Assembly: GCF_009497655.1 (NCBI RefSeq)
Contig: NZ_CP023317.1
Span: forward strand, 1,889,501 to 1,953,500
Direction of reading: 5' to 3'
Length of the DNA: 64,000 nt
Source: Priestia megaterium
Lineage (GTDB): Bacteria; Bacillota; Bacilli; Bacillales; Bacillaceae_H
The notes under the pieces: model-generated
Told to the model about the DNA's origin: nothing
Seen by the model: the letters and a program-made list of their open reading frames with translations, nothing else
Database searches by the model: none
Position numbers and translations under genes: made by a program
Shown: piece after piece, positions 22,581 to 25,513 of the stretch
Position numbering within the stretch: position 1 is the first letter of the stretch
How the letters are laid out: every line of letters starts with the position of its first letter

Positions 22581-22890
22581 GAGGCTGAGACAAACGTATA
22601 TTAGTTGAAGAATCCGAGCGGTGAATCGTTCGGATTTTTTCATGGATAGGCTGAACGTAGACCTTATGTATGTAGCTGATTCTAGCGGTTGGTTGAAGGA
22701 CAAGGTGTAGAAAAGCTAAATAGATAAGAACTCGCCGAAGGAGCGCAAACGGCGAGGAAGCTCAACATCATCCTATAAAAAGTAAGGTATTGCACCGAAA
22801 TCAACAGCAGTGTCATAGGCGATTCATACTCGATTTTTTATCCCGTTCGTTTCTTCTGGGATTGGATTGATCTCGTGATGTCTCAATCTC
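22581..22890. repeat. MITE-like dispersed element, copy 2 (310 bp)
   Basis: Left end GAGGCTGAGAC, right end GTCTCAATCTC (inverted, one mismatch). The left part holds TTAGTTGAAG and the hairpin AATCCGAGCGG / ATCGTTCGGATT, as in the short modules. Internal blocks match copy 1: TCTAGCGGTTGGTTGAAGG, GGAGCGCAAACGGCGAGGA, GAAATCAAC and GTGTCATAGGC. No coding region. Confidence 0.75.
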
Positions 22891-23056
22891 TTTTCTTTAT
22901 TTGATAAAACTATGTTCTAAATACAAATTACAAGACATGGCCGCTTACAAAGAAGAAGTGATGCCTGAATGCTTCACCTTATTCAGGGCGATTAAAAAAC
23001 TCCCGTTTTAAACTTACTAGGTAGGGGAGTACAAAGGGTTTACGAGAAGAACATAT
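22891..23056. other. Scar-like region after the element
   Basis: Contains the second 20-bp repeat, an open frame without ribosome site (MAAYKEEVMPECFTLFRAIK and a few more residues, 22937-23011) that may be a gene remnant, and a hairpin CCTGAAT / ATTCAGG (about 22965-22989). Confidence 0.4.
22904..22923 (+). repeat. 20-bp direct repeat, copy 2
   Basis: Identical to 20234-20253. Together the two copies bracket 2.65 kb that includes the deacetylase and the second repeat element. Confidence 0.75.
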
Positions 23057-23173
23057 ATGAATTTAGTGGCGATAGATTTAACGAACATGTTAATTGCAGA
23101 AAATCAATTGAACCATACTTTAAACGGACGCATATACTACATTAAAATTTTAGAAAGCGGAGGAATGGACTAA
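23057..23173 (+). CDS. Putative 38-residue ORF upstream of the GerPA-like gene
   Basis: Starts MNLVAIDLTNMLIAENQLNH and ends YIKILESGGMD. Its stop overlaps the next start (TAATG). No proper ribosome site precedes ATG 23057, and a sigmaK-like promoter for the next gene lies inside it. It may therefore be a remnant or spurious; reported because of the exact overlap. Confidence 0.3.
   Translation: MNLVAIDLTNMLIAENQLNHTLNGRIYYIKILESGGMD
23112..23139 (+). promoter_or_regulatory. SigmaK-like promoter for the first GerPA-like gene
   Basis: AC at 23112-23113, a 17-base spacer and CATATACTA (CATANNNTA consensus) at 23131-23139. Transcription would start about 27 bases before the ATG and keep its ribosome site. 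Confidence 0.5.
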
Positions 23174-23415
23174 TGCCTGTTTCCGTCATTTTCAACCAAA
23201 TAAACGTGGTAAGTATGGTGTCCAATTCAGTAATTGCTTCAGGTCAAAATAGCCAGCCAGATTGGAATTCCCAAGGTAAATTTAACTTAGGAAACGGTTT
23301 TGCTATAAATTCAGCTATATTGGGCAGCACGAATATCATTAATGATCAGGATGTTTGTGATACGCCAATTACTCAGCCTGAAAATATTAATCCTCAGCCA
23401 GTTTCTCAGTTCTAG
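23173..23415 (+). CDS. GerPA/GerPF-like spore protein, paralogue A
   Basis: An 80-residue protein. The core INVVSMVSNSVIASGQNSQP then W, GNGFAIN and NIINDQDVCDTP follows the pattern of GerPA/GerPF-family coat proteins (I-x-V...G...S...G-x-G...TN...D-x-DV-x-D). It also aligns with the next proteins of this cluster through N-x-Q-x-x-W and a G-F-x motif. GerP proteins are made late in the mother cell and let germinants pass the coat. GGAGGAATGG precedes ATG 23173. A sigmaK-like promoter sits upstream. Family placement is by eye and remote. Confidence 0.55.
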   Translation: MPVSVIFNQINVVSMVSNSVIASGQNSQPDWNSQGKFNLGNGFAINSAILGSTNIINDQDVCDTPITQPENINPQPVSQF

Positions 23416-23445
23416 GAAAAAGAAGATGAAAGAAGTTGAGAAAAG

Positions 23446-23688
23446 TTGATTATAAAATTTACTAATCTTAATGTTACGTATATTTCTAATAACTCTGGTA
23501 TTTTCACAGGAGAAAATACTCAATCAGATTGGGAAGTGAATTGGAAAAGTAATACGGGGTTTGGTGAAATAATTGGCTATAATAACTTCGCCTCTCAAAT
23601 GGTAAATGTTATTAACGATAATGACGTCGTTGATTCCAATTTTTCTGAACACATAGATTTCAACAATGCTCCTGTTACACAAAGTTAA
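23446..23688 (+). CDS. GerPA/GerPF-like spore protein, paralogue B
   Basis: An 80-residue product with TTG start at 23446: IIKFTNLNVTYISNNSGIFT then GENTQSDW, TGFGEIIGYNN and VINDNDVVDSNF. It has all cluster motifs (NNSG-I-F-x-G-x-N-x-Q-x-x-W, GFG-x-I-x-G) and also the acidic DNDVVD tail seen in GerPF-type proteins. The gap to paralogue A is 30 bases, so they are likely cotranscribed. The ribosome site is weak (GAAGTTGAG). Function inferred from similarity of pattern only. Confidence 0.55.
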   Translation: MIIKFTNLNVTYISNNSGIFTGENTQSDWEVNWKSNTGFGEIIGYNNFASQMVNVINDNDVVDSNFSEHIDFNNAPVTQS

Positions 23689-23748
23689 AGAAGTAAAAGT
23701 AATTAGGCATTCTATCAATCGGTTATTTTGGCAGAGTGGGGAGGATAT

Positions 23749-23892
23749 ATGAGTAACAGGCTTAAACCATCTTTTATACAGATGGTTTTTTTGCTAGCTT
23801 ATTTTAGAGGGAAAGCTATTAATATACACTGCAAGGGGAATGAGAGGAATACTTTTATAGTAAATGGAGTAAGTATCATAGAAAAGGCGTAA
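23749..23892 (+). CDS. Putative 47-residue ORF overlapping a terminator
   Basis: ATG 23749 has a strong GGGGAGGATAT site. The product reads MSNRLKPSFIQMVFLLAYFR then GKAINIHCKGNERNTFIVNG and VSIIEKA. However, codons 6-15 form a terminator hairpin, which is unusual inside a coding region. It may be a small membrane-associated peptide or an accidental frame. No family recognised. Confidence 0.35.
   Translation: MSNRLKPSFIQMVFLLAYFRGKAINIHCKGNERNTFIVNGVSIIEKA
23764..23792 (+). terminator. Terminator-like hairpin after paralogue B
   Basis: AAACCATC / GATGGTTTTTTT with a run of seven T, 75 bases after paralogue B and inside the small ORF at 23749. Confidence 0.6.
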
Positions 23893-23947
23893 AAGCTTAA
23901 ATGATTAAAGAGACGTTCAATTTGAGACGAACAAATAAGAATTTAAA

Positions 23948-23956
23948 CATAAGATA
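23948..23956 (+). promoter_or_regulatory. SigmaK-like -10 box for paralogue C
   Basis: CATAAGATA matches CATANNNTA, 60 bases before the start of the next gene. AC dinucleotides lie 15 and 19 bases upstream, not at the ideal 16-17, so this is weaker than the site at 23112. Confidence 0.35.
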
Positions 23957-24016
23957 ATGTATTTTCAGTTTTATATTGAATCAGATGAAGTAAACTGCTG
24001 TCTGTGAGGTGTTTTT

Positions 24017-24214
24017 ATGTCTAATATTCACTATCATTCCATCAAAGTAAATAAAATCCAAAACAGTTCAGGCCTATTTTATGGCGTTAATATTCAATAT
24101 AAATGGAGTCATAAAAGTCGAATTTCTGACGGTTTCGGAAAAATAGTTGGTGATTCTAATAAAATTTTAAATAATACCACCGTGGCGAAAACCCCTAAAA
24201 AAAATGATGAGTAA
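24017..24214 (+). CDS. GerPA/GerPF-like spore protein, paralogue C (short)
   Basis: A 65-residue protein: IKVNKIQNSSGLFYGVNIQY, KW, then DGFGKIVGDSNKIL and a basic tail KTPKKNDE. It retains the cluster core (NSSG-L-F-x-G-x-N-x-Q-x-x-W ... GFG-x-I-x-G-x-x-N) but lacks the DxDVxD tail. GAGGTG lies five bases before ATG. Convergent with paralogue D, ten bases apart, without an obvious terminator. Confidence 0.55.
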   Translation: MSNIHYHSIKVNKIQNSSGLFYGVNIQYKWSHKSRISDGFGKIVGDSNKILNNTTVAKTPKKNDE

Positions 24215-24224
24215 AATCCTAGAG

Positions 24225-24470
24225 TTAAGTTTCTTTTGCAGCCTGCTTAAAAGAGTCATTTACATCATCTTCACCAAGAACAAGATGTGTATTGTAGGAT
24301 AGTTGATTATCATCTCCCGAAATTGTGCCAAAACCTGAATTGCTGCTGCTGATTGTAGTTTCCCAATTTTTTTGCATGTTTTTTCCTATAAATACTCCTG
24401 CGTTGTTTTTAACCGTATTTACGGTGAGGTCATCAAAAATGATTTGCGGAGAACGGAGATCTATTTTCAT
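24225..24470 (-). CDS. GerPA/GerPF-like spore protein, paralogue D
   Basis: An 81-residue protein: IIFDDLTVNTVKNNAGVFIG, KNMQKNW, SGFGTISGDDNQLSYN and EDDVNDSF. It has the full core plus an acidic DDVND tail. GGGGAGGAATT precedes ATG 24470. A sigmaK-like promoter lies 50-75 bases upstream on the minus strand. It diverges from the GerPC-like gene across 103 bases. Confidence 0.55.
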   Translation of the reverse strand: MKIDLRSPQIIFDDLTVNTVKNNAGVFIGKNMQKNWETTISSSNSGFGTISGDDNQLSYNTHLVLGEDDVNDSFKQAAKET

Positions 24471-24518
24471 AATTCCTCCCCATACATATGAGACATTAAT
24501 TAAAGTTATCTAATACAC

Positions 24519-24546
24519 TACTATATGTTGTAAATGGGCTAAAAGT
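24519..24546 (-). promoter_or_regulatory. SigmaK-like promoter for paralogue D
   Basis: Read on the minus strand: AC at 24546-24545, 17-base spacer, CATATAGTA at 24527-24519, an exact CATANNNTA match with ideal spacing. Confidence 0.5.
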
Positions 24547-24573
24547 GTTAAAACAAATGAGGGGTCAAACTCT

Positions 24574-25299
24574 ATGGATGAAAAGGTGTTGAATATACTC
24601 AAAAACATTGAAAAAAGGCTCGCAAGCTTAGAAAAACACGTAAATGAACTTTCAAAAGAAAAGGTCCAATCTTTTCATTTAGATATAAAGAACGTTGAAA
24701 CACTGAACTTGGACGAACTGTCTTATTATTTAGAACATATTGATGTAAAGGAACTTAGTGGAACTTTGAATATTGGTAATACTTTTCCTGCGCAAACGAA
24801 TCAATATCAAGCGCCGAGAAAGAAAGGTAAAAAAACAACAAATGACTCTGATGTTAATCGGAAATCGGGTAGTCAGAATAATAAAGCAAAAAATAAAGAA
24901 AAGGGTCCTTCTGAAATATCAGTTAAAATTAATGAAAGAAGTGTCCCTTACAAACTAATCCATACAGAAAAAATGAGGGAGTCTAATCAGGCTCTAGAAT
25001 CAATCTTTAGCATAGGTGACATTCATATTGGTACAATCGAAGATGCTTCAGCTGTAAACTTTGGTAATAACTTTCCGACAAATTTTAGAAGTCATAAAAA
25101 AGTGAGTCAGGGATTTGGCAATATTTTGGGCAATCAAAATGATATACATGACATCTTATCCTCTTTAGAGGAAAAAGATGCTTCAGAAGTATACAATGAA
25201 AACCAAGGTGAAAAGCCGCCTGAATGGCTGGACACAATGATAGAAGAACAAAAGAAGGAGATGGGTACCAACCTAAATGGAGATGAAAAGGGAGAGTGA
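24574..25299 (+). CDS. GerPC-like protein with C-terminal copy of the cluster motif
   Basis: A 241-residue protein. The N-terminus is a coiled coil (VLNILKNIEKRLASLEKHVN), then IDVKELSGTLNIGNTFPAQ, which matches the L-x-GTLNIG motif of GerPC. A Lys/Asn-rich linker (about 80-120) follows. The C-terminal part repeats the pattern: SIGDIHIGTIEDASAVNFGN, NFP, then SQGFGNILGNQND, the cluster core. GerPC belongs to the GerP set that makes the spore coat permeable to germinants. Here GerPC-like and GerPA-like parts seem joined. GAGGGGT lies nine bases before ATG. Assignment is by motif only. Confidence 0.55.
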   Translation: MDEKVLNILKNIEKRLASLEKHVNELSKEKVQSFHLDIKNVETLNLDELSYYLEHIDVKELSGTLNIGNTFPAQTNQYQAPRKKGKKTTNDSDVNRKSGSQNNKAKNKEKGPSEISVKINERSVPYKLIHTEKMRESNQALESIFSIGDIHIGTIEDASAVNFGNNFPTNFRSHKKVSQGFGNILGNQNDIHDILSSLEEKDASEVYNENQGEKPPEWLDTMIEEQKKEMGTNLNGDEKGE

Positions 25300-25395
25300 A
25301 TAGGAGAGCAAAACCTTTGGGTTCTAAGGTCAGTGTTGTTGATGCGAAATTTCTGAAAGAAAGCTTTAATTACGGAATAAAGAAGGATTAGTAAT

Positions 25396-25433
25396 AAAAA
25401 ACCTGCTACTTGTTTGGAGTAGCAGGTTTTTTA
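25396..25433. terminator. Bidirectional terminator
   Basis: AAAAAACCTGCTACT / AGTAGCAGGTTTTTT, between the GerPC-like gene and convergent metA. Confidence 0.85.
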
Positions 25434-25513
25434 GTTTGTTTCTTGTTCGCTGCAGTTTCAACATGAAAAAGAGCATGCGTAATTTAATTGAACACTGGGA
25501 TAGATCGGTTCTT

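Follow-up and report, generated by a model that had tools for sequence, protein, structure and literature searches.

A cluster of distant GerPA/GerPF and GerPC relatives in Priestia megaterium, a candidate accessory module of the spore coat

The gene cluster considered here lies in Priestia megaterium, at positions 23173-25299 of a 64,000-nucleotide stretch of contig NZ_CP023317.1 (positions 1,889,501 to 1,953,500 of the forward strand; assembly GCF_009497655.1, 5.24 Mb in three contigs) that is referred to below as the window. It consists of four short genes and one gene of 241 residues, named A (23173), B (23446), C (24017), D (24225, minus strand) and E (24574), and on balance it is probably a GerP-type spore-coat module, accessory in nature and expressed late in the mother cell. 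Two computed results support this reading: the five conserved genes show homology to GerPA/GerPF and, in E, to the N-terminal part of GerPC, and among clusters of this kind the predicted transcription-unit starts are enriched in sigma-K-type promoter patterns resembling those before gerPA. We further infer a location in the coat, an oligomeric scaffold, stacking of the small proteins and a role in permeability. All five open reading frames are present where the original prediction, made from the letters of the window alone, had placed them. They and the two parts of E are as follows.

23173 to 23415, plus strand: gene A, 80 residues, GerPA/GerPF-type; Pfam gerPA E-value 0.076, below the cut-off
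23446 to 23688, plus strand: gene B, 80 residues, TTG start, GerPA/GerPF-type; Pfam gerPA E-value 0.027, below the cut-off
24017 to 24214, plus strand: gene C, 65 residues, GerPA-type; without a Pfam match of its own
24225 to 24470, minus strand: gene D, 81 residues, GerPA-type; without a Pfam match of its own
24574 to 25299, plus strand: gene E, 241 residues; GerPC-like N part fused to a GerPA-type domain
24577 to 24795, plus strand: GerPC-like N part of E, residues 2-74, containing GTLNIG
24991 to 25230, plus strand: GerPA-type domain of E, residues 140-219

The relationship to the GerP proteins, originally proposed with a profile-profile search as its check, is supported by hhalign. The short proteins match GerPA (84 rows) at 84.1 % (E 7.5e-6 over 60 columns) and the N part matches GerPC (18 rows) at 95.9 % (E 6.4e-9), against maxima of 0.9 % and 1.1 % for shuffled controls; these were 20 column-shuffled versions of the target in each of the three comparisons made (short proteins with GerPA, N part with GerPC, E domain with GerPA). 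The E domain and the short paralogues match one another at 98.5 %. Individual relatives point the same way. At E <= 0.1, Pfam recognises gerPA in 46 of 100 short proteins (best 1.8e-7) and in 23 of 32 E domains (best 2.4e-6), with the next family claiming one member in each set, and GerPC in 20 of 31 N proteins (best 7.8e-7; next family, three members). One of these relatives, the N protein of locus L116, exceeds the GerPC cut-off, with 29.6 against 22.4 bits. These results support the view that A-D and one domain of E are distant GerPA/GerPF relatives and that the rest is related to the N-terminal part of GerPC.

It had been claimed that E joins both halves of the GerP system in one chain, and this is too broad. 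The GerPC match covers profile positions 3-54 of 174, and the C-terminal part of the family (73-174) is replaced by the GerPA-type domain; because of these profile matches, E is best described as a GerPC-like N part plus one GerPA-type domain. The GerPC trait of an N-terminal helix or coiled coil, followed by a segment ending in L-x-G-T-L-N-I-G, is found in the N part, with GTLNIG placed after the N-terminal helix of E. The coiled coil was judged from the sequence; a low-confidence model has a helix at residues 3-29.

A core motif had been described as common to all five proteins. In its full form, NNSG-x-F-x-G-x-N-x-Q-x-x-W ... GFG-x-I-x-G, it fits only B, C (with NSSG) and D (with NNAG). A carries the variant SNSVIASGQNSQPDW and lacks GFG, while E carries DASAVNFGNNFPTNF ... 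QGFGNILG. Likewise, the D-x-DV-x-D said to end two of the proteins is present in A and B, followed by further residues rather than at the extreme C-terminus, and D has the related EDDVND. The more general D-x-D-x-x-D after the core, a trait of GerPA/GerPF, occurs in A and B, in part in D, and not in C. When 19 relatives are aligned, residues G22, N24, G38 and G40 of B do not vary, and dN/dS against congeners is 0.014-0.36 across the five genes where computable (one comparison of C was saturated, and B was set against three relatives only), with metA as a control at 0.007-0.047. By the invariant residues, the dN/dS values and the profile match between the short proteins and the E domain, the pattern of the cluster exceeds chance. 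A further likeness, of the LNIG motif in N to the VNFG motif found in the E domain (79 %, 68 %), was not accepted, because one row of the alignments compared (L012) extends into the E domain and only short stretches are aligned.

Several results count against a GerP-type assignment. All proteins of the window score under the Pfam cut-offs in the single-sequence scan: A reaches 13.7 and B 15.1 bits for GerPA/GerPF (PF10676; gathering threshold 27.3 bits), and whole E reaches 15 bits (E 0.025) and its residues 1-126 17.3 bits for GerPC (PF10737; gathering threshold 22.4 bits). C and D have no Pfam match at E <= 10, and the E domain alone has none to PF10676. In hhalign the E domain matches GerPA at just 44.2 %, with shuffles reaching 6.2 %, and a gerPA search of the same genome at E <= 10 lists 17 places, A-D not among them. 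The AlphaFold2 models are poor, with a pLDDT of 46 for E (12-row alignment) and of 67 for B (100 rows), the latter without assigned secondary structure, and a fold search of the PDB with the B model, the only one searched, gave no match; therefore no structural claim is made, and the stacking of subunits discussed below is a model without structural support. Beyond these, NCBIfam has nothing for A-E, no match to GerPB, GerPD or GerPE is listed for the window proteins in the Pfam and NCBIfam scans, and a PDB sequence search with both alignments gave nothing better than E 0.18. Weak single-sequence scores and short reading frames would suit vegetative or phage-related proteins that resemble GerP by chance. 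That these are not spore genes at all is scarcely credible and already disfavoured, given the profile controls, the purifying selection and the sigma-K-type patterns; in addition, E has no tblastn match in the plasmid and phage collections.

The promoter evidence rests on a strict pattern drawn from the sigma-K consensus, AC-N16/17-CATANNNT(A/G), sought within 160 bp upstream of predicted unit starts. It occurs at 30 of 99 cluster unit starts and at 14 of 207 other genes of the same loci (p 1.4e-7), or at 21 of 74 and 7 of 160 (p 6e-7) when nine near-identical loci are left out; a loose form occurs at 58 of 99 and 25 of 207 (p 6e-17). When the cluster upstreams are shuffled by dinucleotide, strict matches average 1.3 and reach at most 4 of 99, and the upstreams of gerPA, a positive control, have the strict pattern in 17 and the loose one in 21 of 22 cases. 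Other patterns are rare at cluster starts (sigma-E 2/99, sigma-G 2/99, sigma-A-like 0/99), and sigma-70-type sites are not above shuffles (8 against a mean of 11.1). Two observations weigh on the other side. The best of 200 scrambled patterns, whose closeness to the real one is unchecked, reaches 23 % of cluster starts (mean 1.1 %), and 69 of the 99 cluster starts lack the strict pattern, 41 of 99 even the loose one. Within the window, strict matches precede A and D and loose ones C and E; the following are matches to patterns only.

23112 to 23139, plus strand: sigma-K-like promoter of A, AC-N17-CATATACTA, 33 bp before the ATG; strict match
23931 to 23956, plus strand: sigma-K-like promoter of C, AC-N15-CATAAGATA; loose pattern only
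24493 to 24520, plus strand: sigma-K-like promoter of E, AC-N17-AATACACTA; loose pattern only
24519 to 24546, minus strand: sigma-K-like promoter of D, AC-N17-CATATAGTA; strict match, back to back with the promoter of E

Sequences resembling the -10 sequence of the A promoter are also present upstream of A orthologues. At 24493-24546 the promoters of D and E, both sigma-K-like, overlap in back-to-back orientation, and from this overlap the two genes may be co-regulated or competing.

The system with which the cluster is most naturally compared is gerPABCDEF. As described in passages of PMC2817736, the gerP operon is under a sigma-K promoter and gerP mutants germinate slowly until the coat is removed; the GerP proteins are located in the inner coat and are believed to provide germinants with channels (passages of PMC11841064 and PMC2817736). 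Small GerPA/F-type proteins, a GerPC-type protein with GTLNIG and sigma-K-type promoter patterns are common to both. However, gerP comprises six genes, A-F, in one operon, while here there are five, one of them on the opposite strand: four short GerPA-type genes plus one such domain, just the N part of GerPC fused to that domain, and no listed match to GerPB, GerPD or GerPE. The mixed orientation, noted originally, is real and is conserved in all 12 loci of the fused type described below. Elsewhere the same genome has a gerP locus, near C1:613k, in which GerPC and genes of the GerPA type were identified, and eight places in this genome score above the gerPA cut-off, a ninth only jointly with its neighbours.

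The original prediction compared the cluster with the known gerP operon, one gene each for A-F in one direction; paralogues of the GerPF type located outside gerP had also been known before. Passages of PMC2817736 report gerPF2 and gerPF3, members of the gerPF family at other chromosomal positions, whose nucleotide identity to gerPF is 79 % and 59 % and whose function overlaps with that of gerPF. These are reported there as single genes, whereas the present genes form a cluster with its own GerPC-like protein and its members are far more divergent. Alternatively, A-D could be a reserve of GerPF-type subunits incorporated into the regular GerP complex, the role that gerPF2 and gerPF3 may have in another Bacillus, and E could act as an adaptor. 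The overlap reported in those passages of PMC2817736 and the gerP locus with GerPC in the same genome would agree with this. We nevertheless regard it as very unlikely: the cluster has its own GerPC-like protein, a single layout in all 12 fused loci and A-E types that form clades of their own, and one genome on a single contig (G130) has an E-profile match of 6.7e-23 and no GerPC match at 1e-8. G130 and the genome of locus L118 (G020) share one genus label (g9), and both have an E match and no GerPC match at E <= 1e-8; the layout of L118 is of the split type introduced below. In these two genomes, where gerP may be absent or only divergent, the module may stand in for it.

Two other places in the same genome are similar in composition. 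At L018 4818-7247 (C1:2519k) and L020 4028-6553 (C1:2890k), GerPA-type genes (three in L018, and two in L020 that are above the gerPA cut-off) lie beside Hsp20 genes and a gene for a longer G(A/H)LNIG protein. Unlike E of the window, this LNIG protein has no GerPA-type domain. It is perhaps general for such clusters to encode a GerPC-like LNIG protein of their own. The cotP-ydgA-ydgB region of B. subtilis may be comparable to L018 and L020.

A search for the same neighbourhood in other genomes, as originally suggested, was successful, and the fused form proves to be one version of a wider and more often split system. The 51 loci examined are the window, 10 relatives and 40 chosen from listings, and are thus not a random sample. 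Twelve are of the fused type, and all twelve share the layout A> B> C> <D [N=E]>. The split type, in which N and E are separate genes, is commoner (34/51); N and E are side by side in 28 of the 34, and the commonest layout, Hsp> s> N> E> <s <s, occurs in 12, with five more having an extra Hsp20 gene. The remaining five loci have no N-E pair, two of them without any match. By profile, Hsp20 genes are present in 23 of the 34 split loci and in two of those five, and a BLAST comparison links Hsp20 to 30 of 54 loci, including L018 and L020 (next neighbour family, 8). Pfam places HSP20 above its cut-off in L112, L058, L018 and one gene of L020; the second L020 gene is below it. None of the 12 fused-type loci carries an Hsp20 gene, which speaks against the module as proposed here, and Hsp20 was for this reason rejected as a part of the window cluster.

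Beyond these loci, the E profile matches 119 of 397 genomes of the order at E <= 1e-4, and 64 of the 397, with 18 family labels, have a best match at E <= 1e-12. In a set of 398 genomes sampled from the class, 58 have a match to the E-domain profile at E <= 1e-8. Among the 119 genomes is none of the 15 without a SpoIVA match (P 0.004, uncorrected for kinship). Against this, the association is not significant (P 0.068) once the comparison is confined to the 64 genomes with the stricter match, and a single family label covers 8 of the 15. The argument that the cluster occurs only in spore formers is therefore kept weak, since SpoIVA is present in 382 of the 397 genomes.

The patchy occurrence between species (64/397 genomes) is reminiscent of species-specific outer parts of the spore, and it may be that GerP-type folds are used here as a structural component of the coat or interspace, strengthening or shaping a layer (such as an outer-coat or exosporium-basal one) with no role in permeability. 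CotM and CotP, which we take to be Hsp20-type proteins, bear on this, as do the Hsp20 genes found in 25 of the 51 loci. Both proteins are listed as spore coat proteins in a passage of PMC3533761. A purely structural role is nonetheless somewhat unlikely: N is GerPC-like and the small proteins are GerPA-like, and in the cited part of PMC2817736 the slowness of gerP mutants lasts until the coat is removed.

The history of the fusion can be followed in a tree of 176 rows and 77 columns, many forks of which are unresolved. A (27 rows, 100/99), B (12 rows, 100/98), C (14 rows, 98/89), the E domains (47 rows, 100/96) and D (12 rows, 83/97, from fused-type loci only) each form a clade. The 12 fused E domains and that of a broken locus, L057, make up one group of 13 that is nested among the split ones with modest support (83/86), and we interpret the fusion as a derived state that arose, in the simplest case, a single time. 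In its linker, VKINERSVPYKL, E resembles the C-terminal end of some separate N proteins, such as VKVNGTPLKYTVS; an end of this kind is found in 7 of 33 by a strict pattern and in 13 of 33 by eye. Because of this resemblance to part of the N proteins, the join probably lies just after the linker.

The genes flanking the cluster in the window recur in three loci of the same genus (L053, L054 and L055). Other genes flank L056, L060, L091, L092, L012 and L058, apart from scattered matches to common families, so that among the loci with flanks listed the flanks are common to congeners only. Six of ten genomes of the genus have an E match, one of them broken. In one congener without the cluster, G001, the flanks align at 95.0 % and 97.5 %, and window positions 22964-25504 and 22581-22890 have no counterpart; the cluster therefore appears to have been gained or lost as one unit. 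Horizontal transfer is a reasonable but unproven explanation for the patchy distribution. The broken match, L057 7012-7604 (G009), is a decaying copy in which the N part is truncated and the E domain is kept, with no match to A-D within the 15 kb examined.

If the cluster is an accessory GerP-type module, its proteins would be produced by the mother cell during late sporulation and would assemble in the coat. The coiled coil of E could give rise to an oligomeric scaffold, and the LNIG segment and the tethered GerPA-type domain could form a docking surface on which the small A-D proteins would stack, as GerPA-F may do in gerP. Either the coat would thereby acquire a second path, or filter, for small molecules, or the main GerP path would be tuned. 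In the split form, the co-encoded Hsp20 probably chaperones assembly; fusing N to E would fix their mutual contact. An unlikely extension of this model is a self-contained, transferable coat-channel cassette, in which the scaffold and four subunits would build a second conduit, chaperoned by Hsp20 in the ancestral form; gain or loss between close species would then alter what the spore takes in, and the fusion would show direct binding between GerPC-type and GerPA-type proteins, in gerP as well.

Among the titles and abstract openings listed from the open-licence literature, which included the gerP operon and gerPF paralogues, no description of this cluster, of the fusion or of the Hsp20 linkage was found; this is not proof that there is none. 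No account of how GerP proteins contact one another in the coat was found in the passages of PMC2817736 and PMC11841064. A natural fusion of GerPC and GerPA types suggests direct contact between the two in the spore coat, a prediction that can be tested. The linked Hsp20 of the split form similarly points to a dedicated assembly chaperone, and congeners with or without the module at the same chromosomal site offer a natural experiment on coat permeability in Priestia, a genus of which laboratory strains exist.

Some smaller features of the window and of related loci may be added. No tRNA genes were found in the window. Two terminator-like hairpins accompany the cluster.

23764 to 23788, plus strand: terminator-like hairpin 3' of B; weak, with two in the region against a shuffle mean of 1.3
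25395 to 25433, plus strand: terminator-like hairpin 3' of E, 17 pairs

Five reading frames in other loci contain two tandem GerPA-type stretches each according to our own profile (L105 2301-2888, L111 6073-6588, L113 4631-5149, L114 6468-6986 and L128 2986-3762). A Pfam scan of L105, L111 and L128 confirms two stretches for L105 alone, the other two having no match at 0.001. From these tandem frames, GerPA-type domains seem also to fuse with one another. Finally, in one locus of the same genus (L056 19-5686, genome G005), a germinant receptor operon of the GerA type (Spore_permease, GerA and GerAC in Pfam) and a gene for gamma-glutamyltranspeptidase lie immediately upstream of the cluster.

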